From Ianthella basta (taxonomy: Eukaryota > Porifera > Demospongiae > Verongiida > Ianthellidae): DNA of 64,000 nucleotides. Numbering within the stretch: position 1 is the first letter of the stretch; every line of letters begins with the position of its first letter. The stretch spans positions 5,537,915-5,601,914 of the forward strand of contig OZ025870.1 in the NCBI GenBank assembly GCA_964019415.1, read 5' to 3'. Below are positions 22,736 through 55,100 of this stretch, piece by piece. The position numbers were made by a program, and so were the translations under genes. A model generated the notes under the pieces. That model saw only the letters and a program-made list of their open reading frames with translations. It ran no database searches and was not told the origin of the DNA.

Positions 22736-22752
22736 ATTTATCCCATACATGC

Positions 22753-22939
22753 TGTAAAGGCCTGAGTGGCTAGGCAGATTCATGCTGATATTTCTAAAAG
22801 ACACTAGACAAAGGAGATCAGATATCAGACGTTTCGGCAGCACTATGGCTGCCTTAATCACTGATGAAGGCAGCCGTAGTGCTGCCGAAACGTCTGATAT
22901 CTGATCCCCTTTGGCTAATGTCTTTCAGAAATATCAGCA
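22753..22939 (+). mobile_element. Palindromic element with a hammerhead-ribozyme core (copy A)
   Basis: 22,782-22,860 and 22,861-22,940 are near-perfect reverse complements meeting without a spacer. The plus strand of the right arm has CTGATGA (22,861-22,867), a 6-bp stem II GGCAGC/GCTGCC with loop CGTAGT, GAAA (22,887-22,890) and CGTC. Bases before and after (ATCA/TGAT) can form a short stem I. The left arm carries the same ribozyme on the minus strand with a mutated core (GTGATTA). A 14-bp target duplication TATCCCATACATGC lies at 22,739-22,752 and 22,940-22,953. The 5' part carries TAAAGGCCTGAGTGGCTAGG, also found in the copy at 28.6 kb. Penelope-like elements are known to carry such minimal-stem-III hammerheads; membership here is inference. 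Confidence 0.85.
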
Positions 22940-23057
22940 TATCCCATACATGCACAACTATCAATCTTTCTGTGATTCCACAGAAGCTCATTGCTACGAA
23001 GCATAGAATAGGGACTTGTTGTTTCTTGAGTGAGCACGTACGTAGTAGGTTAATAAT

Positions 23058-26475: not shown

Positions 26476-29400
26476 GGTGAGTGTGTGTGCGTGTGTGTAT
26501 AGTTGCGTGTGTGTGTGTAGCGCGAGGTTGTGCATGTAAGTATTGAGTGTGCATCTGTGTGCAGCGTGAGTTCATGTGTGCTGTAATGTGAGTCATTCCT
26601 GAAACACACTACTCAATAGCACAAAATTCCGGCAAACTTTACAACATTGTGGAAAGTCCCTGTGTGGCAAGCCAGCTAAGGATGTTTACGGTTGGAGTCG
26701 CGTAGTGAAAGTGCAACAACTAGTATACACACAGTCCACACATTCTATAGGGGTGCAGCTGGGGGGTGCAGTTTCACATACGTGGCTCAAACCTTTCTAT
26801 GCTATTGAGCAGATGAGAGGATACTATCCCCCCTCTGGGCACTAGGTACTGTACCTCCATCGGAAATAGTGGAATTAAGGGAATGGCTGAGTGAGATTAG
26901 CCGAGGTGTGGCTGGGGCTGAAGGGTAAATAATGATGACATCCATCCAGTTGTACCCCCACCCACTCAGTGGTACCCCCACCCACCCAGTGGTACCCCAC
27001 ATTCATCCAGTGGTACCCCCACCCACTCAGTGGTACCCCCACTCACCCAGTGGTACCCCCACCCACTCAGTGGTACCCCCACCCACCCAGTGGTACCCCA
27101 CATCCATCCAGTGGTACCCCCACCCACTCAGTGGTACCCCCATCCATCCAGTGGTACCCCCACCCATCCAGTTGTACCCCACACCACCCAGTTGTACCCC
27201 CACCCACTCAGTGGTACCCCCACCCACCCAGTGGTACCCCCCACCCACCTTGTGACAACCCCACACATGCCAGTGGTACCCCCCACCCAGTACTGCACCT
27301 ACCTGCTCTTCACTCCTGGCATGTTGCATTAACGCAGTGTCAGCAGTGTCAATCACAAAATGGTGTCCCTTGTCGGCCAGAGTGTCAATGTGGTGGCTGA
27401 GGTCTTCCAAAAGGCTCTCCAGTGGGCCCTGGGGATCATGTACGACATCCTTCAACAGGATCACTTGCATTTCAGTGTCAGCAAGGTCCAGGCTACCTAC
27501 ATGCATGCCCTCTGAGATGGATGAAGGGTAGGAGGTTGGGAGGGGGAGGGGGAGGGAAGGAGGGGATAGGGAGAGGAAGGGGGGAGAGGGGGATGAGGAG
27601 GTGAAAATTGGTTATGACACACATGTACATATGCATAGGCAACTCCAAAGCACACACACACACACATAGTATTTACCCCTTGACTTCACTCTCAAAGGCA
27701 TAGCAAACACACCACACACGCCTTACCCAGAGCAAACACGAGGACTGAGTCCACTGGTCTCCATGCGCGGATGTCCAGAGATGTGAAGAACTCGTACATT
27801 TTGTCCCAGATGGCGTCGTGCTGTCCACTGCTCACATCCAAGGACACCACTCGATCAGGGAGAAAATAGTTCAACATGGGTGTACACACGTTCTGGTGCA
27901 TGATGAAACGGCGCTGATGGGGAGGAGGAGGGTGAGGGGCAGGGGAAGAAACAACACAAGAACAGTGGAACAGATCACACACAAAAGCACAGTGGTTAGC
28001 CACAGGTCAGTTTAACACTCCAAGGTCTTCTAATGGTCAGTGCCAATTCTGTGTGTATGTTGTCAACAAAGTCACAAGCTCATTATGCACATCCACAGAG
28101 TGATTTTAAACAATTGGCACTCAAGAAAAGTTGCAATTCTCACTGAATGTGTTTAGTCTTGCATAACCAATTCCTGACTCCATTTTCATATGCTGACATC
28201 ATCACCCGACTTTCTCCCCGACGATTACGTCATCAATTAAAAATGGAGGGGAGAAAGTGGTCGGCTATGTGAGGTTAGATTGTATTCTGGTATACAATCT
28301 TTCAAGGGAGTATATTCGTGAAGTGACAATTGACTGGTTCCTCCCTGTTTAGATGTGTTCACTGGTTTCATTGTTGTGGAGAAAATGTCCATGCAGGTAT
28401 CACCTGGTTGCCGTGGTAATGTAATGTATGCTAGTTAACACATTACCATACCCTTTTTGCATATACACACACAACTAGAAGCGCCTCTTCTAGCTGTTGT
28501 CTCTGGCTTCTCCTTAACCACTATGCACTACTTCCAGAGGGGCTTCTAAAATGCGAAGACCTAATGCTGGATTTAACTTATACTCAGCAGCTGACGTTTA
28601 AGTGTGAATTGTTAATCGGCTGACAGACCTTTGCCCACCTTAAGGAATTCCACAGAAATGCTAGCCTAATCACAAAAATGAATCAGACGTTTCCGCCGAA
28701 ACGTCTGATTCATTTTTGTGATTAGGCTAGCGTCTCCGTGGAATTTCTTAAGTCTTCCTAGCCACTAAGGCCTTTATCAAACCTTTGCTCTGGAGTTGTC
28801 TGCTTCGTCCCCTACTGTGGCACCGGCAGGCACCATTGAGGCAGTGTTGTGGTGTGAGTAGTCTAATGTCTGGTCAAGGCTGTCCTGCGTCAGTGAGAGG
28901 TTGAGGGCAAATGAGAATGGCACCTACGGTGACAACGGGAGGGAGGAAAGAACTGGATAGACACATTAGGAAGAGGTGAAAGAGCTGGATATAGTAGCAT
29001 CAGGGAAGGGTGTACAGCAGACACTTATAATTATGTGGAGTTGGACAACAAGGGATGGACATGTTGGAGCTTGCCATACTCATGAAGATGGATAATGGGT
29101 AGCTCCATCACATTTGTGTGAAGGGCACATGAGGTGAGTTTCGCAGAGATCAAATGTACATACGTACATTGCAAAGAAAGTTATAGGGAATCAAGGTGTA
29201 TAGAAAACAGAGTATATTGTTCTATTGTAAGGCCCACTGCAAAAGGTGAGCTGCATTATGCTAACTGCCGTTCACACTTAGCAATTAAACCATTCAAAAG
29301 GAATGTAGGCAAAGCATGAATACTTCAGCAAGACCGTATGACGTAAGGGCTTCTCAGCTGGCTCAGGTATAATAAAGGGTACCTAGTACTCCAAGCACTA

Positions 29401-37100: not shown

Positions 37101-40100
37101 GGGAGAGTAAAGCCAAGTGCGTGAAGGTGGTGCTATAGTTATGTCATTGTTTATGAGGGAAGCACTTTGTGTATGAGGGAAGCACTTCGCTATGAAGTAT
37201 CACACACTCTGTGCTGTATGCGTGACCAATCAATTGTTGCGGAAAGCTGTATATCTGCCAAGGCTTGTTAACAGCAGTTTTGTATGCCTGACGAAGCTGG
37301 TGGTGGGAGACACGTTGCTGTCCATTTCCTAACAGACTTGGCGTACTCAATTGTTCACAAAGTCTATTGTTACAAGTGTGTCTACTAACTTGCACCAATC
37401 AGATGTCACGCTCGTGACGTCTATTTAAGAATGTGCCTGGTTCAAAATGGCGTCTCCTATCTTAATGTATTAGGACGCTTCAGCGAAACTAGCCAAACAG
37501 CGGTGGCAAAGAACAATTAAAGGCCATGGATTCTTTTGATGTATTGAGGACGGCAGCATAGCCAAAGGCAACCTGGAGTACACGTAAGAGAAAAGCGTTA
37601 TAGGCTGCTCGTACCCTATTTTGTCTTTTCATATTCTTATTCTTCTTCCCACTGAATTTTTGCGCGCTCCTAATGCAAGACACAGGACATCTATGGCTTA
37701 CGTCACGTACCAGGACCCGCATACGTACCTGAAGGGTGAAGATCTGAGCACCGATGGCAATCCAATTCATACAGCGTTGGAGCGAGCGCGAAGTTTGTGT
37801 TAGACATACCCCAATGCCGCCATTTTGTTGCGTTCTACTGTATCAGACGTCGCGTTCGTGACGTCTGTATACTCAGCGCGAGTATTAATCTGATGTTGAT
37901 ATAGTCCTTTGGATATGGAAAAAAGTATTGTTAGGAATGGCTGGCAGAAAAAGCATAGAAACAAGCAAGAGTAACTCAATGCCCTAATAAACCACATTTC
38001 TGTGAAGTTCGCTCTGCATTCCTAATTTCCTTGTAGCTACATGTATCGATGGGACTATATAGCTGCTGGACATTTCGGTACATGTAGCTACAAGGAAATT
38101 AGGAATGCAGAGCGAACTTCACAGAAATGTGGTTTATTAAGGCATTGAGTTACTCTTGCTGGTTTCTATGCTTTTTCTGCCAGCCATTCCTAAATCCTTT
38201 TTAATTCTAAAGGAATTTTTATACACTAGTTCATTTTAGAATGTCAGACTTATAGAAAGAGTTAGACATCAATTGTAATGTCTTTTACGCCCTACGTTAC
38301 CTGTTGTTATAGGTGACTGTGGCTACAGTCCCATGTGGTAGCCTGTACATCAATCCTCGGGGGATCAGGGCACGACCTCCTCTGCCTCCAAGATACACTG
38401 GAAGATACAAAATGTGTCGACACCACCGCAGCTGCCGTTATGGGCAAGTGTGCAAATTTGCTCATTCTGAAGAAGAGTGTATCGTCTGGAACAGTGAGTA
38501 CTTTCTATTACTTGAATATGCTACCACTTTGATAGAAAGCGTGTGTAAACTGAGCAGGAGATATTGATCTCTTCTCGCAAGCTTCCACCCATCTGGTTCT
38601 TCCTAGTGTCTGCATGTTTAGGGTGTCGTCTTTTGGAAGTAACAAAGAAAGTGTATATCACAGACACATATACAGACTCACAGACAAACACTGAGTGTCT
38701 TTGAGTGTCAAATGTATAGGATGGTTTGCATAAACTTCAGGTATGTTTCTGCATTCATTATAGGGCATTCAGGAGATGTTTGTTTTGAGTGCATCAAGCA
38801 ACTACTTGCTAAACTGATCAGTCTCCAAGAGAAATTGTGCACTTCAAACCACAACAAAGTAAGTTTCTGCAGAGGGTTCTTATGGACAAGCGAAGTTTCT
38901 AGTGAAGAAGTGGCCAGAATTTCGGTCAGAGAGTGGAAGGTGTTTCATGTCTTACGTCCTCTCCCAACGAATGTGGACATGATGAGGCAACACAACTACC
39001 AGTACAAGTTCAAGCACACTTACTATGACTGTCGGTTCATGGGCACTTTCACGGGATGCTTTCATCCGCACAACCTGGAGGAGGACAGACAGTGGAACCA
39101 GTGGAAGAGTGAAGGCCTGACCCCAGTGAAGCTACACGACTCAGCAGTGGCAGAGTATGAGAAATGTGAGTTGACTGTGTTTGGGAGTTGAGCAAAAAAC
39201 AGCTATACTGCCTATAACTTTGCTTGTATGTATAATGTACAAAGATACTTTCTGAATGTTCTATAACTCTTGCACTTATCACGTTATGATTCCTTACTTG
39301 CAGTGCGAATAATTGAAACGAAGCCAGTGAAGCAAGTGGTCCCGGCCAAGAGCCAATGGCAGAAGTATGCAGATCTGGGGAAGACCTCTAAATATACCGT
39401 TGAGATCAAGGAGCTGGGACCTAGCAACTACAAAGAGTCCTTCCACAAAATGCTTGATTTAGAGGAAAATCATACGGGTCAACAGCTAACACAGATCAAG
39501 TGCGTTCTTGTGAACTTACATACCATGCTGCTTTCCTTCCCCTTTTCATGTTTGGTGAACTACTGCATGGCAACCTTTTGTTGCAGTATGGGAACTTGTG
39601 TGAACTGGCGTTTGTGACTACAGTAAAATTGCTTACTGCACTATAAATACAAAAATTACACATTGGAGCATTAACCATCGTCCCTACATTCAAGGGTGTA
39701 GGACTATATGGTGCGACACTCTTGCATGTAGGGACCATGATTAACGCTCCACTGTGTAAGAAGAGCCTTTACTTGTTTCTGTCATTTTTTAAGCCATCCC
39801 TACATCCTTATTATTTTTGTAGAATTTGTTTATTATTTCTAACTTGAATTACAAGTAGCAGGAGCGTCCACCTGCTAGCACAGAGGTGTATGAAGAAAGC
39901 ATAGTTCTATTATATACCATGTTTGCACTGACCCCGTTCGGTTTAGCTCAGTTGGAACGGCTGATTGTTGGCCATGTTTACACTGAAAAGTGTAAACTGA
40001 AACTGGCCTGGGTGTTAGACAGGAATAATGATATTCATAATATTATGAATATCATTATACAGAATAAGGGTTGCAATGTTATGTGAAGTTCTCTTTCTAG

Positions 40101-43100
40101 CCAGCTATTGAGCATGTTGCCGCAGACTTTCCTGTTTTGGGTCAGGTTTCTTGCAGTTTGCTTGCATCTTGTTTCTTCTTGTAGTTATTTTTCAATTTCT
40201 TATTTTTTTCCCTGCACTGCTCTGCAGTCTTCTTGAACCCAGCCTTCCCCATTTCTTTGGCAATTCTTTCATGAATTGCCTTGTTCCTTTTTGCTGACTC
40301 CAGAAGAGCCTGAATTTCCTCATCAGCCCAGATGCTAATGAGGTGGTGTACCTCTGTCTGTCCATCCGCTGTCCATCTTCGCTGCGGAGAAGAATCAGTC
40401 CAACGTTCGCGAAACAAGAACACTCGTAGCGCTAGCACTCACCCAAGCAACGTTTGTGTACTTCACATCGCTTGTGCGTCACTTTGGAAACGGTTAGCAC
40501 GTCCTTGTCGAAACAGGCGCTGTAAATGTTCGTTTACTAACTAAATTTGAGCGAAAACGCTGGCAAAGACGGCCGTTCTACGACGATTAACCTACTCTGC
40601 TCGTCCATGCTCGCTTCGGAATCAGTTGGCACAGTTACGGAAGCATTTACACTCACGATAGAACCGAACCGTGCTGACCCGGTTTGGTTCGGCACGGTTT
40701 GGCACGGTTCACACTACATTTTGTAACTGTTCCCGAACCGATATCCGAACCGAACCGGGTCAGTGTAAACGTGGTAATAGGGTCATAGGCCAAATTGGAA
40801 TCATGAATTATAAATGGCTGTTAGATGCAAATATGGAACATCGGAAGATTAAGGATGAATTTGGCAAAGTGGCAGTCTTCTAAGATTTGTAGGTTTGGCT
40901 GACTTTTGTGGTGAACTCCATGAGGAGTTATTGAACCATGGTGAGTCTTCAAAAAAGGAACAATAGACAGTGAAAGCATTACTATCCGCCATAAGGGACT
41001 TCACAGCTCCCTGCTGTGGCACGCTAAGCGAATTTGACATTCTAAGGTGGGATTACCACTAGTATCCTACTTGACTGTATGAGTTGGAGAACTATTGGTT
41101 GACCAGATATCGCTTCTCTTTCTAGTCGTGTGAAGTGCCTCTTCTGTGAAACTTTGGGAAGAACAATACACATTCTTCACAAATTGCAGCTCACAGACTT
41201 GAACCAGCTCGGCCTACCAAGCCAGCCTTTTAATACTGCTTTGTGTATAGAGCAATATTTGACTCTATCAATATTCTACACACTCTTGGCTTTAGCAGGT
41301 ATGTATGCAGAATTTCAATAATCCCAAGATGTACATAGTTAAGGGTAGTTGTCACTTCTTCACAATTGCTCCATAGGTGATTTTATACTATTGAATAACA
41401 TGTGTCAAACCTCGTTTTGGTGCCTACTGTAGATGCACAATCATGTTGAGTATGAAACTCTAACCAATACAAGACATGTCCATGGCTTATGCAGGTGAAA
41501 GATATGGACTGCCACAGTACGCATGCCAAATATAGAGGCACACACTGAGATTTTGTAAGCACCCCAAGGGCAATATCATAATATGGCACAAACATGCCTA
41601 AATTTAGTCTCGCGTAGCCAGACCGCTTCTCCCCTCCATTTTATATTATGACGTCATCGGTCGGGGAAAAGGGTCTGGTACATTGCCTATGCGCCGCTTG
41701 TGCAGAGACCCCCCGGAAGAGGGTGGTTATAATTGCATTCTCGCCCACGCGTTACCAGGCAACCACCCGCCCACAACTACCGGTGTTGCACAAGCCGTGG
41801 CAATGAAAGCCATGATTTAATTGGCGCTGAGTTTTTAGCCTTCGCAGTTCGAGCGATTTCTCTTGCCAAAGCCTTTTTGTAGCAGCCTGCTATATGCCGA
41901 TCGAGTCGTTAGCACTGTATGTGCACGTGTTGACAGCAATGCATGCGTACGTACGGTTAGTAGCAGTGCCCTGTGATCGATTCCGCCTTCGGGAGAGACT
42001 AAATTCGTATGGCGCGGCGAAGGAGTCCCTTCGTACGTGCGCATTCCCTTCGTACGAGCGAATTCCCTTTGTTCTCTCGCCCAGCAATCACGACCCAGTG
42101 TTTACGCAACACCGGTAGTCTTTGGTGGGCGGTTGCTGGGCGACGGGAGATGTGGAATGCAATTATAACCACCCTCTTCCGGGGGGGTCTCTGCACAAGC
42201 GGCGCATAGGCAATGTACCAGACCCTTTTCTCCGACCGATGACGTCATAATATAAAATGGAGGGGAGAAGCGGTCTGGCTACGCGAGACTAAACCGCATT
42301 TGGGTAGGCTGGTTCACGAGACTAGGTCTGTGTAAGCACATCAGTAGAAGCAATAATTCTGAATTCGCACTCTATAGCAGGATGAATGAGTGTGGCATAT
42401 GAAGTGTACAATCCTTGAATGTTGTGCATAATTCATGATTATTGTACAGTATGTATTTACCAAAAAATAGGTAGTCCATAATTTTAGGACATTTTGTTGT
42501 TGCATAGCTTGAAAAAGCTATACATTACTTTCTGCTCTTTTGATAGTGCCAGATGTGTCTCATTGAATGCTGTTTGTGATGGCCGTGTTGAGTCCAGAGA
42601 GTATAGAGATAGAGCAGGCTTCCTCAGCTATCGCCTGATCTACATCTTTACCATCAAGATGGCATGTGACACAGCTGAGTTCCTCAATCATAATGCTTCG
42701 TCAATTGAAGTTGACTTTGTTGGGCCTGGTGGAAGAATAACGCGTGTAACGGCTGTTCCTCATGGTGATGACGATACTGGACTCATCCTGTCAACCGAAG
42801 TGCCTTTAAACACTGGTGTTTACAAAGTGAAGTTTGCTTACTGTCGGCAGAAATCTACTTGGGGAAAATTTCACCCAAATGTTGAAAATGCTCCGGCTAA
42901 CCTAATTTTGAGACTTGTTCCTCAATTTGTTGACTTTGTAATCGGAACTGACAATGCAAGAATTGATTATACAAGGTATGAGGAGAGGGTGAAGGTGGAG
43001 AAAATTCTCGAACTGGACCACATCTTCCAGCAGGAAGCAGCAGAAGCCATCTTGAATTGCCCAGTGGGTCCTCCGTTCCTTGTAACTGGTCCCTTTGGTA

Positions 43101-46100: not shown

Positions 46101-49100
46101 GCCGCCATTTTCGCTGACTCGCTTATGACAACTGTAGTACCACATCAAAGAGGTGTTAGATTCACACCTTGTCCGGCTTCTCACGGTCATTGAACAGTTA
46201 AACTTGAGCAAACTCCCAGACCCTTTCCACCCGGTTATTGTACAATAACCAGAAAGGAAAGGGTCTGGGCTACGCCAGACTACAAGTTGCTGGGAGCAAT
46301 CATTAATGACACTTTGTGTTGGTTGCACCATGTCACCCACATCTCCAAGAAGGTGTCCCAACATGTTAACCTTTTAAGGCAGCTTTCTTGGTTTCTCCTT
46401 TCCTTGCTTCTAGTTGTCTATCTCAAGTCATACGTACATCCCTCCATCTTTTGACTACTGTGATGTAGTTTGGGGCAACTGTTCTAAGAAGGACTCGAAT
46501 CGCCTACAGACACTGTTTAACTACATGTATGGTTGTCGCATTGCCTTACATTGTTCACGTCTTACCTCCTCTTCTGCCTTGTGGGAAGACCTTGGTCTGT
46601 CATCTCTAGCCTCTCGTAGAAAACCTCATCTTGCGCAATTTATGTTCAAATGCCACAACTGTCTTGCTCCTTCCTACCTAACTACTCTTTTCAAGGCACC
46701 ATCCACAATTACTTTACTTGCAAGAGAAATCTAATAAATCTTCCATCTTTCAAGTCATCCTATGGACAACTTTCATTCAGCTTCCTTGGTGTGTCCCTGT
46801 GGGCTCGCTCACTTCCATCTTCTGTTTGCATGTGCCTCGAGCTCATTAGCATCATTTACAAACTCAGCATCAGATTTTAATAGTACAAACTAACTTTTTA
46901 CAAAATGAACATTTACATGATGATGATAACTTGGCACTTATTTCACTTATAATACATTAACAATCAATCTGCATGGCTCTTATTTTATTTTTATATTATT
47001 TTTACGTATCGTACACTTTTTAGCGTGCCTAGTATAGTAGCCATGGCTAAAGGCTTTTCCTGATTAAATGAGCAATCCAATCGGATCCAAAAAGCACTAC
47101 TTTGTTAGGTGTAATCACACATAACAAAGTAGCACATTGTTAGGTGCAACAATACTTAGCTACTATATGTTTGTTACTGCATGCATGTCTTTTGTGTGCA
47201 GAATGAAAGCTCTTGGTTTTTACTATTTGCGCCTTCCATGAATAGCAGACTAAGGTGTTGAATTAATGCTGTTGCATGTTACTTAATTCCATTTGTTTAT
47301 TGCCTATCTGCAGCTCAGCAAAATTAGAGCCAGTGTAAGAGAAATGAGAGGCAGCCTAATTGAGGTTCGAAAGATGTTGCACTCAAAGAGCCTCCAGTTG
47401 AGGACTACACACAGTATTCAAGGTTGGTGAAAGTCTTCCACTCATTCAGCCCACTTTACCTATCACAGTGGTATGGCCCATTTTGCATCTGTAATCAAAG
47501 AAAGACCAATGAGTCTATATCTTTGATGCGATTAGCACCCAAAAATTGACTTTCATATCTCACTTTGTTAGTAAGCAATATTGAGTCCAGCATTGAATAT
47601 AAATAAACAAGCAGTATTCGTCCAACCATTGTTGATATTCTAAATTGACGTTGCTTCAAAGCTTTGAATCTTACAGACACCAGCATGTTACATCTTCATT
47701 ATTGTAGGATATTGTGTAGTGGAAATGGATTTGTGAATGCAGGATTCTTTGCTGCAGCAGTCATGTGGTCAGCAGTTACAGTTGGACACTTTCTGATATT
47801 GTTTGTGTGTGGTCTGGTAGCTTCTGATTTGTTCTATCTGTGCTAAATAGTGGAGGAGACATGCACCTGAGCAGTTGATCCAACACAGATGCAAAAGGCA
47901 TTGACAGGTTTATTCCACGAAATTTTGTGGAGTGCAAATTTTGTGGTTGAAGACTCATCTGCAAAATCTGCGAAATTGTGCTCCTGGAAAATTTGTCGCC
48001 ATACGGTGATAGTATTGCATATTCTTTCAGAAGCTTGAATGGAACAATTGAGAGAGTGAATACAATGATTATGAGATGGTTTGGTGATGAATGAATGATT
48101 GAGACGGTTTGATGGCAAACAGTTGGGCGCCGGCAGAGAGGCTCAGTTGCTTACAAACAATGATATTCGTTGCCAAAATGCATAATCACATCATTATCAG
48201 CTTAGGAGCAGATTCAAAACCAATTTCTTGTTCTTTGATGATCATAAGGACCCTGCTATTGGGGGGGCTTACATGTATACATGCACTTGGAATACGCTTA
48301 TAACCTTAAGCCATAGTCCCCTGGTTACCCCTGTCCCTACTTAGATATGTACCGGAGTGTGCAAACAGGCTCATTTCATTGCCGAGCTGAAAGTGAAGTA
48401 TGTATTCATGATATTTGGCTGTGCGGCCCTTTAGTACATTTGTAACATGTACACTAGACAGACTGAGTCCCTGCAACCATATAAAAGCAACAAAATCATG
48501 AATACTTGTGAACTGTGAAGTTAAGCATACTCAGTGCCTAGCCTATGAGTTAGTGCTTCATAGTCGACTGTGAAGTACGTATCTGCTTGTGGAGCACTAG
48601 TTATACACTTAGGTTTGTCTGTACATATCTGGATGCATATGCGCACACCAGAATGTGTAGCGCTACTTTACTGTTTGTTCTCTTGCCCATTCTCTTCAGG
48701 TCAGGAGTACACTGTAGTATTCCTATGCACCACAGAGCCGTATACCAGTGCGGCAAATGGACAGGCAGCCCCAAAAGCTGATGCCATTGGCGCAAGCATT
48801 GTGAACAAACGTGTTTTCAACACCGTCCTCACTCGAGCAAGGACACTGTTTGTTGCCATTGGCAACCCTTTCTACTTGATGCAAGCAGAAGCCAATGCCT
48901 CTTCAGAGCTGGGAGCTGGAATCTGTTGGAAGGAGTACCTGAGGAAATGCATCGAGAATGACAGCATTAAGCTACCTCCAGACTGCAGTGAACGCGAGAG
49001 GCAAGTCCTCTTGGAGAAGGTCTTTGATGACCATGACCCACTTGGGAGACGTGGCAAGGAATCTGGTGTTGAGCAAGATACCATCCTTGACCAGTATTCA

Positions 49101-52100
49101 TGGGAATTTCTCAGAAAGCTCAGCTTTATTGGAGGCAGTTGGAACCTTCCAAAGTTGAAACAGGAAGAAGAAGAGGAAGACAGCGCAGACACTATTGAAC
49201 AGTCACGAGTGCCTAATGAGTGGGTACTGGAGTGCAAATCTGCCCACTTAGCTGAGGCTGTGCCCAGAACCCATGGCCTTCCCAGGTATAGCATTCAGGG
49301 AGTCAAGAGCCGTGGTCATGCTCTTCATGGAGCTGTGGTTGTAGTTAAAGCTATTGCCTGTGGCGACCGGCATTCTGCTGATAGCAGCTCCTTACCGCTT
49401 GGTCGGGTTGACTCTGTAGTGAAGCAGAGTGAGCAGAAATTGTTCCTTTGTCGAATTGACCAGTTCAACAGCAACCTTTTTGTACCACTGAATGGGCTGG
49501 GACCAAAGCTGGCCAACTTACCTGCAGTTTCCAGAAAGTTGATCCAGATTGATAAGGCACAAGAAGAGATTGAAGAAAGGATGAAGGGGTATGCAGCCTT
49601 CAAGAAATACCCAGTTTCATGCTTTGACCTCAGCGGCCTTGAGAAGGATATCCCAGTTCCAAAACTTCGTGATGTAATTCCCTTGGAATCAGCTAAGAAG
49701 TTGGTGTTTATTGTGCGATACATTCAGTGGAATGAAGAGAATGTGTACCCAATGGCAGCCGTGGTGGGCACCTTTCCAGTTGCCCACACTCAATTTCATG
49801 CCGAAAGAGTGCTCAATGCCTTGCACCAAGGGCGTGATGACAGGTCAGCAGATATTCAAGCTGCCATGGAGGGCTTTTCTCGGCTCATGCTCAGTGATGC
49901 TAGTGGTGCACCCACTGGACCTATTTCAGGCAACCCTAAGGAAGACATGCGTAGACTGAATCTGGCATTGCAATGCTCCCAGTCAAGCAAGCTGTACCTT
50001 GATGCAACGGTATGTCGGGCGGAAGGGAAGCAGTTCTTCATAGATCTGCCAGACAAGCCTTGTGGCCCCCTGGAGTCAAGTCAGCCAGCTTTCCGCATAG
50101 GCTGTGAGAAGGCAGGAACAGAAGGAATGACTGTCAATTGGAGGTTCAAAGTTTGTTCAACACGGAAACCAGAAGAGGTGTTGCTGAATTTGTCCCAGTT
50201 GAAATTTGAAGGAACTGCCGCTCCAGTGACAGATGACAAAGTGCACCTCTCCCTAGTTGTCACTGACAAGGGAAGTGAGAAGACAACTGTTTTTAAAGGA
50301 TGGACCGCATCTACTATGCCCACTCCGGTGCCGCAGTTGCCCCTGGCCCAAGCAGTTATTTCATCCTCCCTCAGTGCAATTTCATCACTGCTGCATTCCT
50401 TTAATCCTTATCCAAGCACTACATCTGAGGAACTGCAGCTGCACAATCAGCAAGTGGCACTGCCTAGAAAGCTGAAAGGAGCAGAAATCAGTCTCTACTC
50501 CTTCACCATCAAGTGTTCTGTCACCATCGGTCAGGTGCTGCCTGTGTGGATTGCGGCCAACACATCAGGACTTGTAATTCAACCAGAGGTTCAAGTGGTG
50601 AAGCCGGCTCCATATTTGGACATTTGCATGCAACACTCCACACGTGCTGCACAGTGCTTCTCAAGCCCTGTTCTTCAGAATGCCTCGCTAGATCGCTACA
50701 GGGACATTGACGAATACGTAACCCTTTGGGAGTCAGTGCTCATGGCAGAGGCGGCTGAAAGCAGCGTCAAAGATGGAGAGCTGCTTTTCATTGATTATGC
50801 CTTTCTGGATTGGCCCGAAGAGGGCTTCAAACCAGTCACTAATCTGCTGAAGCCCAACAGTTACATATTTGAAGGGAATGTAACACTGCAGTTGAGTGGG
50901 GATTTTATCGACCGATGTGGACGATTTGTTTTGCTGAGCCCAGGGGACTTTGTGTGTGCCAGGTACGAGGTGCCATTCCCTTACACAAGCAATCCCCCTC
51001 ATCCTTCAGAAGTTGATCGTAGCGTCTACCACTTTGTGGTGCAGTCCTGCACAGAGGAACAGACTCCTGATTCAGTTCAACCAGCTAAACAAATTGTGGA
51101 ACTGAAGATGATTGGCGAACGTAATTCAATGGTGTCAGAAACCATGTACCGAAAGCTGACTGTTCCCAGACGGTTCTCACCTTGCACACTTCAAGTTATC
51201 CAATGTATGATTCCTCAAAGGTCAGTGCAGGCATGTAATATAGAATACTTGTTCCTACTCCATTGGTAGGAGTATATGCACGTGGGCAGCAATTTGATGA
51301 CCTACAAGTACGTATAGAATGAATGTGGTGTTTTTGTTACTATTTGTAACTTGCACAGTAAACAAAGCAGTTTGATCAGGCTTGCTCCATAAGGCTGTAG
51401 CATATGTTGATATAGTTGACACATCAGTTTAGCAAGAACATCATTGATACTTTGGTTGGAATTATGAGATACTATCATATCAGCTACATATGTAACCCTA
51501 TCTTACTATAATTCACGGGATCTTGAATTTTTATGTATGTTTGTTCAGCCATAAAATCGGTGCCTTGCAGGGAATTGGCCCGAGATGTTCCGTGCCAGTG
51601 GAGGGACTCGGGGGACATGTTCTTAGTGGGGTGCCGTTCGCCTAGCTGCCTTACGGCCAAAAAGTGAGACGTCCTACGTCAATTCTCCGCAGGCAGACAC
51701 GCCATTATTAACATTATAGACTGGCCCTTCCACACCTGGTCATTGGCGTACTTGATACGAGCCATGCCAGTTAAGGGAGTGGGGGACATGAGCTTAGAGG
51801 GGTGCCGTTCACCTAGCTGCCCTGCAGCCGAAGAAAGCACTTCCTTTTTTCTGTGGACCGAGACGCCATTTTTTATTATTGGTCTCTAGAACTTCCGGTT
51901 ATGGGAGATCTTATTCGTTGTCACAAACATTTGAATTCAACTCTACCGTCGTTATAGCAGCCAGCCTCTGTTGCTACAGATAGTTCAAAACTGGCAAGGG
52001 ACCGACTCCCTGGCTTGCAATAGGCTGGCAACCTGCCCGTAGTGCAGGCATTCAGTTATATATAATTCAGTTTGTTTGTTTGTTTGTTCGCTTTTGGCGC

Positions 52101-55100
52101 AAAAACTACGGAACAGAACACCACCAAACTCTCCGGGATTATAACGTGGGGCTCCAGAAGTGTCCTCCATGAAGTGAGGGCTTCTCAGCTGGCTCAGGCA
52201 TCAGAAAGGGTTGGTTCTCTAATACCAGCTTCACAACAGGGTTGAAAACCTTGCCGACGTTTCGACCAGATGCTCTGGTCTTCTTCAGGGCGAAGAATAG
52301 CGAAGATCTTCGCCCTGAAGAAGACCAGAGCATCTGGTCGAAACGTCGGCAAGGTTTTCAACCCTGTTGTGAAGCTGGTATTAGAGAACCAACCCTTTCT
52401 GGTGTCCTCCATGGGTTGAAATCGCCCATCTTGCAGTTCCTGAAGAGATATCCTTTAATTTCCGGTTTTCATTTGCTGCTGATGGCTATTTTATTAATTA
52501 TTGCTCATTGACTTCTGGTTATTGGGTGGTTTGATTCGCTGTAATCCAACGATTGAATTTAAACTCGGCCGTCGTTATAGCAGCTACCCTACGTTGCTAA
52601 CAGTGCAGATTCTTTGAATCAGCCTGGGCCTGACTCGCTGTCGTGCGACTTGCCGAAGCAGACGCCCGCTGAAGGCGGGCACCCTGCTGGTATTATATAA
52701 TATAAGACAGCAGCTGCAAGTGAAACGGCACAGGTCAACTGAGAATGCTGCAACTGTCAATGTAAGACCAAAGCTGTCAGCAAACAGAGCGTACATAGGT
52801 ATGGCAAAATCTATCCATCATTCTGTAAAATAGCCGGTTGGCAATTAAGACTTTTGCCTGCTCACCAACATCTAACTCACTATAGATCCCATTACCATGG
52901 CAATGGGCGTTCTAAGCGATGTTTCTAAAACTCGTAGACTTCCTGTTGCGTTTCGTGCGGGGTCTAAGTCATTTAGATACTGGTGGATAAATCCCGTAGA
53001 ACCCTCTGACGTCATGAAAGAAAGAAGCTGCAGCTGTGATAACAATAGTAGCTAATGCCACAACATAAGATGTACAGGTTGCCCGGCTTACTTGTTTCGT
53101 CAAGAAACAGGGTAAGGCAACAATCCGGCTATGAACCAGAGCCGAGAAACGAACTTTTTACAAGCTGGGAGAAGGCTTTGGTTAAAGACACTGCTCTGGG
53201 AAACACTGTGGCTGATGGGGCTGACAGTGAGTAAGCTTACATTTAGCTGACATGCCGCATCCACTGCCGACCTGTATGAAATGTCTGCTGTGAGATGACC
53301 AACCTAAATTGAGACCCGAACCAAGTGATGTTTGTGTGCCACTGTCAGGAGTAGCTAGCTAACAACTTCTGGAAGGCGCATGATGATGCAGGTATGAGTA
53401 GGTGAACTGATTTGCTGCTGGCTCCTTGCTTAATCATTTGGGATCTAAAACACTTAAATGCTGACCGATTGGTATCTCTGAAAATTGAGATTGGTCAGCA
53501 TTTAACTATTATGTAATCATGTATCTGGCCGGTGCCTAACTATTTGTAAGCGCTTTGCGTACGTACCACTAAACAGCCTCACTCTTTTTTCGTCGCTGGG
53601 CTTTTAATTGTTTAGTCACCAACCTAACTGTTTCTGTGCCCATTATATACGTATTGTTTTGTCTGAACTGGACTAACTGAAAATGAAAGTCATTCCAATT
53701 GCTTCGTATAAACATGGAATGTATGCATGTTGTCACATGCTGTACTGTTTTTTCTTACTTTTGGTCTGAACTGTGATGCAACAGGAGGATGTACGAGTCA
53801 CTGCTGAAGCTGAAAGGGGACGACAGCAGCAGTTTTGTGACCAGTGTAATCGCCTGTGGGCATGTGAACTTGACACAGCCAGAAAAATGTGAGCTTCATT
53901 ATTGTATCCTAAACTGAAAGAAATGCATCTGAGCTAACTTATGTGCAAATTTGAGTGTTCAGTGTGCTGTCTCCACATTAATTGGTACTAACAATGTCAT
54001 CATTGTTATGTTTTGTCTCTCTACAGTGAGTGCACACACGCCTGGAACTACTTCTACTTTCCTTGAAAGGGACCCTGATTTCGCACACTTGTGGTCAGAT
54101 AGTAGTGAACACCTTAACCTTAAACAAATGGAAGCAATGAAGAAGGCTCTCCAATACAAGTTCACCTTGATACAGGGACCACCAGGTATGCAATTTTGAC
54201 ACTATATGTCTTCAATTATATGCATACTATTCACTTGGACACACACTACATTTATCACGGAGCCTTCATCCTTGCCATTATCTAGACTAGCAGACTAGTT
54301 TTTGGTTAGCTACATCGCTGTGGATGTGTATACCACACCTTATTGTTTTAATCTCTCTCGTGAACAATTTTTTAAAATCAAATTTGCAATTTTTGCTTTG
54401 TTTGTAACTTCTCTCTCGCTGAGCTGAGGTGGATCAGATCCTGAGAATTGACACTTATCAAGAAATGGTCATGCCATTGGTTGTCAAAGTGTGTTGTAAA
54501 TCGCAGAATAGTCTTGCAAACTGTCCTTAATAATTTGTGCTGACATGTTACTGTTGTATGTACGTATACCTGTTTTTAATTTTAATCTTTTCCAGTCTGT
54601 GCGTTCATTCGTTCGTTCGCTTGCTTGTGCGTGGCATTGAAAACGGGCATTTGATTGGACGACGCAATGACATAACCGCAAACATGGCCGCTCTGGTAGT
54701 GTGCATGTGCCTCACAGCGAGCCGCTCTCTTAGACACTCCGCACTCCTCAGTTTGGGTCTCTCAGGCATGACACGCACTTGCACAGATGTTTACTGTTAT
54801 ATTCTGGTGCGAGGTAACTGCTCTGGCTATCGGTACGTGGGTATTTTTGTTTTGCTATTTGGATACTTTAGCTGTTAGCGTTCTTGGCTGCTGAAAGCCC
54901 TCTCTCTATTGCAAAGTAAGCTATTGCGCAAAAAGCTTGCTTGGCTTGGGCACTGTTTTATTGGCTAAGGAAAGACATGACCACGTAATACTTTTAACAT
55001 GGTGTAGATGTAGCTATAGCTATGTATATGTACATGAAAGTGGCCAAGGTCAGTGCAAACACGATCAGCACTATACCCAGGCAGTGTCACCCAGCTGCAA

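Follow-up and report, generated by a model that had tools for sequence, protein, structure and literature searches.

What kind of event leaves a short palindrome with a ribozyme-like core on each strand? The question is raised by positions 52160-52413 of a 64,000-nt stretch of the genome of the sponge Ianthella basta (the window; C3:5537915-5601914, from a searched genome of 209 Mb whose contigs are labelled C1, C2 and so on). The locus is probably one insertion of an endonuclease-bearing Penelope-like element (PLE), which would have been primed from both strands of its target. The structure of the locus, its relatives in the genome and the regularities common to them are described below, followed by the other explanations and the observations that weigh against the one preferred.

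The insertion and its source element

The locus contains an inverted repeat with arms of 98 nt each (52199-52296 and 52307-52404), which are 99% complementary and separated by a 10-nt spacer. The initial annotation had described a perfect palindrome with identical 94-bp arms; the inverted repeat is real, with arms of the length given here and not strictly perfect. The 12-bp duplication GTGTCCTCCATG that it placed at both borders was found at both (Table 1). The left side carries 32 nt that are absent from the right side, here termed the tail. When both flanks were joined with a single copy of the 12-mer (158 nt, join at base 82), the resulting query matched a dispersed repeat. All 40 copies scored, of 452 first-look candidates, showed 87-93% identity and spanned the join: 24 matched over the full query, 2 matched from its third base onwards, and 14 began at base 1 and stopped at base 134-151. 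This places the insert at about 52172-52401. The 12-bp repeat behaves as a target duplication, and the locus is an insertion into a copy of the dispersed repeat.

Each strand carries a 33-nt core, CTGAAGA...GAAACGTC, of which none was expected in 100 shuffles. Positions in the element are numbered from 0, the first base after the predicted ribozyme cleavage point between GTC and GGC. The isolated core is predicted to fold (-14.8 kcal/mol, z -3.2) with stem I GCC/GGC and a 7-bp stem II enclosing CUGAAGAA and GAAACGUC, a hammerhead layout without a stable stem III and with one extra A between CUGAAGA and stem II. The hammerhead consensus is CUGA.GA / GAAA / UH with stems I and II, which has one A fewer than this core. 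The invariant core and stems I and II are present by sequence and predicted fold, and the hammerhead-like cores annotated on both strands were borne out by motif search and folding. A check with the hammerhead models of Rfam, as the initial annotation had suggested, gave no match at the gathering score, nor at E up to 10. Low-threshold Rfam matches were rejected: some resembled microRNA hairpins because of the long inverted repeat, and two were at chance level. It had also been proposed that RNA from either strand contains a ribozyme and a long hairpin. This holds for the sequence, but if the whole repeat is transcribed, folding predicts that the ribozyme is buried, paired with its own complement (-202.9 kcal/mol for the hairpin vs -14.8 for the isolated ribozyme fold).

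A count of genome copies had been called for in the same annotation. The core with its next three bases (36 nt, up to 3 mismatches) was found at 1563 places, 766 and 797 on the two strands, and its reversed control at 0. The 3'-end sequence occurs at 2159 places (1087 + 1072) and the 3' end with tail at 618 + 562, the latter counts including leaders inside longer copies. In long copies, a frame just upstream of the same ribozyme region matches RVT_1 (Pfam, partial frame at locus L032; E 5.7e-7, 29.9 bits against a cut-off of 29.6) and GIY-YIG (Pfam, last 122 residues alone; E 2.4e-5, 25 bits against 22.6). GIY-YIG was not reported by Pfam when longer frames were scanned, and nothing was reported on the 355-aa C-terminal frame. 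PHROGs gave a weak reverse transcriptase (RT) match (E 0.0013); of the sequence searches against the PDB, one returned nothing at E up to 1 and another weak RT matches with a best E of 0.27. Among those listed, there were at least 117 genome matches to the C-terminal 355-aa frame (114 of 1261 candidates scored); 4 of the 117 lie in open frames of 837-854 aa, and one in a 1999-aa frame. An RT domain, a C-terminal GIY-YIG and a single long open reading frame (ORF) are found, as are inverted and direct pseudo-long terminal repeats (pLTRs), a tail of 32 nt (30-40 nt in such elements) and a target duplication of variable length. The source is best read, from these sequence features, as an endonuclease-bearing, or EN(+), PLE. 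The link to a Penelope-like element in the initial annotation is upheld, as the frame with RVT_1 and GIY-YIG shares its 3' region with the insertion.

One tail per pair and a common 5' end

A 1.09-kb 3' piece of one element copy was used as query and aligned to 91 merged loci (numbered with the prefix L). Of these, 63 were taken by exact ribozyme match, being the first listed exact places, on C1 and part of C2, out of the 1563; a further 28 were taken by likeness to the window copy. They yielded 72 head-to-head insertions, 44 ribozyme-sampled and 28 likeness-sampled. Three loci, L026, L038 and L039, have in common one 9-nt filler at their central junction, their flanks and their border repeat, and are therefore a single insertion that was duplicated. 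L038 and L039 were accordingly removed from the junction and filler counts and from the tail, border-repeat and arm-length classes, and kept in the 63 loci, the set of 170 arms, the arm-identity test and the first listing of border repeats.

The 3' ends of the arms lie mostly at +50 to +57 or at +82 to +85 (exceptions: -11, +41, +47 in three arms, +62 and +78). Exactly one arm was tailed in 69 of 70 classifiable insertions, L013 and L045 being unclassifiable and L037 counted by its outermost arms. In the ribozyme-sampled set alone this was the case in 41 of the 42 classifiable insertions among the 44 (binomial against 0.5, p=2e-11). The tail was on the left in 38 insertions and on the right in 31. 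The query ended at +85, so the distal border was checked on the flanks; TGAAGT was present there in 44 of 46 insertions with a readable border repeat. Orientation was equally regular: among the first 100 listed exact 3' ends of the 2159, all on C1, neighbours less than 400 bp apart were in -/+ orientation in 27 of 27 cases, as is predicted if each target 3' end is extended. Eighteen of these pairs had exactly one exact tail, none had two and nine had none; from the nine, L034 and L083 have one tail with base changes, L085 has none and L045 is unclassified.

Direct border repeats of at least 9 bp were present in 56 of 72 insertions (mode 13), compared with 2 of 1420 mismatched flank pairs. Relatives with target duplications, the absence of which would have spoken against the initial annotation, therefore exist. 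A search for a target-site motif showed weak T richness only and nothing strand-specific. Three single-arm copies without a tail (L011, L080 and L089) have 8-9-bp border repeats by eye and 5' ends at -40 to -42; these are possibly one-sided insertions. Direct, not inverted, ribozyme pairs exactly 255 bp apart were seen at C2:3533022/3533277 and C2:5972599/5972854, possibly retrozyme-like or tandem PLE leaders.

The 5' ends were compared in the 170 arms that extend at least to +45 on their 3' side. Most of them (124) began at -44 to -38, 100 of these at -42 or -41, while 16 were longer and 30 shorter; in the ribozyme-sampled loci the corresponding figures were 69 of 114, 16 and 29. The 14 long arms listed each have a TATA box whose first base is at -72, 30 nt ahead of -42 (spacing counted by hand); it has the form TATAAATA in 12 arms and TATATATA and TATCAATA in one each. 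A spacing of 30 nt is that expected for a TATA promoter; position -42 is therefore read as the RNA 5' end, and is presumed to be the transcription start of the PLE RNA.

No arm starts at the ribozyme cleavage point (nearest 5' end -5, 170 arms), with the caveat that every locus has at least one intact ribozyme and that pairs too close to hold one exist (C1:13477239/13477325 and C1:15531659/15531712 in the 3'-end listing). The templates of the arms examined were therefore uncleaved, which fits the normal insertion in vitro of hammerhead mutants (PMC11167929).

The two arms of each pair were also compared in length. Where neither arm was truncated, 41 pairs were full/full, 3 long/long and 0 mixed; where truncation had occurred, 25 were full/truncated, 1 long/truncated and 1 truncated in both arms (loci sampled for an intact ribozyme). 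In 66 pairs, a variant at +35 was common to both arms in all three pairs having it. These data fit the use of one RNA per insertion, or of one source at a time.

The centres of the 72 head-to-head pairs range from a 7-nt overlap to a 68-nt gap; the arms overlap by 1-7 nt in 25 pairs, abut directly in 5 and are separated by added bases in 42. For 29 fillers of 5-30 nt the mean longest match to the element was 6.9, vs 4.9 when shuffled, and 0 of 500 shuffles scored as high. Microhomology and copied fillers are typical of polymerase-theta-type end joining. The fillers and microhomology here look like end joining, and template jumping by the RT would be an alternative. The overlap junctions recur, which is expected of microhomology.

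Proposed priming from both target strands and the alternatives

The preferred explanation would operate as follows. The nuclease of the element would cut both target strands about 10-15 bp apart, each side keeping a 3' end. Reverse transcription would begin at two internal sites of the RNA, from one target 3' end at about +85 and from the other at about +53, which is 32 nt closer to the RNA 5' end. Each cDNA would extend through the ribozyme to -42, where the RNA template ends, and end joining would then unite the two cDNAs, either by microhomology or with short fillers that derive in part from the arms. The target duplication would arise as the staggered cut is filled in. With only about 95-127 nt between the start sites and the RNA 5' end, the product would be a tiny head-to-head repeat in place of a full element. 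In vitro, a Penelope-type enzyme has been described as cutting both strands, extending them and initiating at two neighbouring internal sites, which delimit the tail (PMC11167929). A narrower proposal, that one RNA molecule is used twice in each insertion, by one strand from about +53 and by the other from about +85 in an obligate division, is put forward tentatively, at a little short of even chances. If true, obligate use of a proximal and a distal start site would explain the tail on exactly one arm, and PLE integration would be a two-strand primed reaction unlike that of R2 or LINE-1.

Self-priming, in which a single cDNA or antisense template folds back and copies itself, has in its favour the head-to-head arms with mostly short spacers and the near identity of the arms within a pair. 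It was proposed for Penelope in Adineta vaga on the grounds that the inverted junction there contains palindromes (PMC3846280). A copied arm should end where the first one ends, yet one tail was present in 69 of 70 insertions; the arms are often cut back to different points (the 25 full/truncated pairs), and the fillers and microhomology have the look of end joining. Self-priming is consequently considered unlikely here, and the data fit two-strand priming better. The initial annotation favoured a non-autonomous element derived from, or mobilised by, a Penelope-like element. In favour of such a palindromic element, similar to a miniature inverted-repeat transposable element (MITE) or a short interspersed nuclear element, that a PLE moves as a unit are the many similar copies with target duplications; in a few cases, too, two or three places have a non-trivial junction in common, one of these being the junction of L026, L038 and L039. 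These three loci are one duplicated insertion, however, and recurring overlap junctions are expected of microhomology. The centres vary from pair to pair, the tail is on the left or the right about equally, the TATA box of the long copies lies outside the short ones, and a continuum leads from this structure to arms several hundred bases long that reach into the ORF (L035 and L088). Nor was the fixed internal unit with terminal inverted repeats of a MITE or fold-back DNA transposon found: junctions and arm lengths differ and the ends are made unequal by the tail, though some junctions recur. Most of the evidence, namely varying junctions, arm truncation and a tail on either side, does not support mobility as a unit, which appears slightly less likely still than self-priming.

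The 5' inversions of L1 combine two-strand priming with inversion. Twin priming in the LINE-1 style, with the second target strand priming the same RNA at a point further upstream, would account for both of these. It joins different parts of the RNA, whereas in these insertions the arms overlap and their starts fall at the same two 3' sites, and it is therefore considered very improbable. Least probable of all is a pair of separate insertions, the second beside the first. PLEs do form tandem arrays (PMC11167929), and a three-arm locus (L037) and a further arm about 640 bp from L043 exist, but in most insertions the two arms lie together within a single duplication, and close neighbours were -/+ in all 27 cases.

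Several observations weigh against two-strand priming, or against parts of it. L085 has neither a tail nor a border repeat, the inner, adjacent pair of L037 has two tails, and two tails face each other at C1:1892632/1892802 (from listed positions only). Nine of the 27 close pairs lack an exact tail, five of these being known from listed positions alone, and 16 of 72 insertions have no direct repeat of at least 9 bp, in some of them, as judged by eye, because of point changes. All data come from one genome; the 28 likeness-sampled loci were chosen by resemblance to a one-tail copy, and exact matching to the ribozyme favours young copies and under-samples old ones. In a wider list that shows about half of 111 matches, a few non-trivial junctions were each met at two separate places (Table 1); for these, known mostly by the junction and not by the flanks, locus duplication and movement as a unit are both possible. 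The end at -42 might also be a processed end or an RT stop and not a cap. Variants common to both arms would equally be explained by one active source locus in place of one RNA molecule. Arm differences were 1.03% within pairs vs 1.22% in shuffled pairs, with 0 of 2000 shuffles as low, in a test that separates the models poorly because the source is nearly uniform. Finally, the start site was alike on both strands in the in vitro work of Frangieh et al. 2024, as described in PMC11167929, so that a strict one-of-each rule is not predicted from it.

Other head-to-head repeats and relation to known systems

Table 1. Coordinates of the insertion, of further head-to-head repeats and of recurring junctions (positions in the window unless a contig or locus is named)
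Feature	Coordinates	Strand	Basis and remarks
Left copy of 12-bp target site duplication, GTGTCCTCCATG	52160..52171	+	Direct border repeat and empty site; last TG may also be tail
32-nt tail, 3' end of left arm, reverse complement of ATGCCTGAGCCAGCTGAGAAGCCCTCACTTCA	52170..52201	-	Alignment
Left arm, PLE sequence -41 (5' end) to +85 (3' end)	52170..52296	-	Alignment; locus L001
Left-arm hammerhead-like core; predicted cleavage between 52256 and 52255	52256..52288	-	Motif; fold of identical right copy
9-nt filler between arm ends, ATAGCGAAG	52297..52305	.	Junction analysis; 6 of 9 nt match element
Right arm, PLE sequence -42 to +53, without tail	52306..52401	+	Alignment
Right-arm hammerhead-like core; predicted cleavage between 52347 and 52348	52315..52347	+	Motif and fold
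Right-arm 7-bp stem II	52323-52329/52333-52339	+	Fold
Right copy of target site duplication	52402..52413	+	Direct border repeat
Second head-to-head hammerhead-type insertion	22739..22953	.	14-bp border repeat TATCCCATACATGC, extra tail left only; borders by eye
Core of second repeat, CTGATGAAGGCAGC...GCTGCCGAAACGTC	22861-22894	+	Full core; extra A before stem II here too
Third head-to-head repeat, arms cut back to GAAACGTC	28627..28788	.	8-bp candidate duplication ACCTTTGC, extra tail right only; by eye
Fourth head-to-head repeat, GAAACG motif	L049 4729-4862		Extra tail right, 8-bp border repeat; by eye
Recurring non-trivial junctions	C4:3962472 and C4:6608322		
Recurring non-trivial junctions	C5:343678 and C5:1146369		
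Recurring non-trivial junctions	C3:434238 and C3:446017		
Recurring non-trivial junctions	C1:4389032 and C1:5368625		

A motif scan covering the window and the 91 loci gave only three further head-to-head repeats (Table 1). All three have one tail, and were found by motif and not by tail. Most of the 40 scored relatives of the second repeat (of 128 candidates) match its tail-bearing arm only. The tail of the third shares CCTAGCCACT.AGGCCTTTA with the second, and a 93% copy of the whole 161-nt query from the third lies 79 kb away on the same contig; the tail of the fourth ends in TCTCACTTCA, like that of the first family. Outside the core the further repeats do not align with the first family. 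They may represent insertions of other PLE families, probably so for the second. The inverted repeats at 37931-38193 and 41603-42293 (arms of 119 nt and 112 nt, 97-99%) were not reported by the head-to-head hammerhead scan. Elsewhere in the window, an RT fragment of another retroelement lies at 1561-2427 (RVT_1, E 9.2e-16), and an 899-aa open frame just upstream of the insertion (48570-51269) has no Pfam match at E up to 0.001.

The initial annotation did not recall this arrangement as a described class, but head-to-head inverted arms have already been described for Penelope. In Adineta vaga an inverted pLTR lies head-to-head with the element, a 31-bp tail is optionally present on one inverted pLTR and target duplications of 8-10 bp occur, though not in every copy; self-priming on an antisense template was favoured by the authors in 2013 (PMC3846280). 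The examples described there are elements with bodies (PMC3846280), whereas many of the insertions here are minimal and consist of the RNA 5' leader only, and the tail, optional in Adineta vaga, is on exactly one arm almost always in this sample. Poseidon/PAc of Anolis carolinensis likewise cuts and extends both target strands in vitro, with internal starts at two adjacent sites that bound the tail and a hammerhead before them, but differs in showing no strand preference for the start site (PMC11167929). In a term search, 'palindrom' and 'head-to-head' were absent from the main text of that paper. Head-to-head arms, tail and duplications are therefore already known for Penelope, and what is added here is the one-of-each start rule and the run-off class. 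Neither a strict one-tail rule nor a run-off insertion class was found in the literature searched, in which coverage of PLE-hammerhead and PLE-diversity papers was incomplete.

PLE hammerheads of the minimal type I form (Cervera and de la Pena 2014 and Lunse et al. 2017, both cited in PMC7761336) resemble the cores described here in a near-absent stem III, a position in the pLTR and a proposed activity as dimers; the present cores do not match the Rfam models. Metazoan retrozymes are also small non-coding hammerhead repeats of animal genomes, and are proposed to spread via circular RNA (PMC7761336), whereas the insertions here are head-to-head with a fixed 5' end. The direct tandem hammerhead units of 150-300 nt that mark a non-LTR retrozyme were not seen, close neighbours being head-to-head apart from the two direct pairs 255 bp apart.

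The route of PLE integration and the frequent flanking inverted repeat are described as unresolved in part of the PLE literature. The many minimal insertions of I. basta, with few moving parts, would make a little-understood insertion mechanism testable in an existing in vitro system, and they place three constraints on any mechanism proposed: a single tail in each pair, a shared RNA 5' end and a stagger of 10-15 bp. For annotators, these data suggest that such palindromes are probably the footprints of insertion and not a transposon family.

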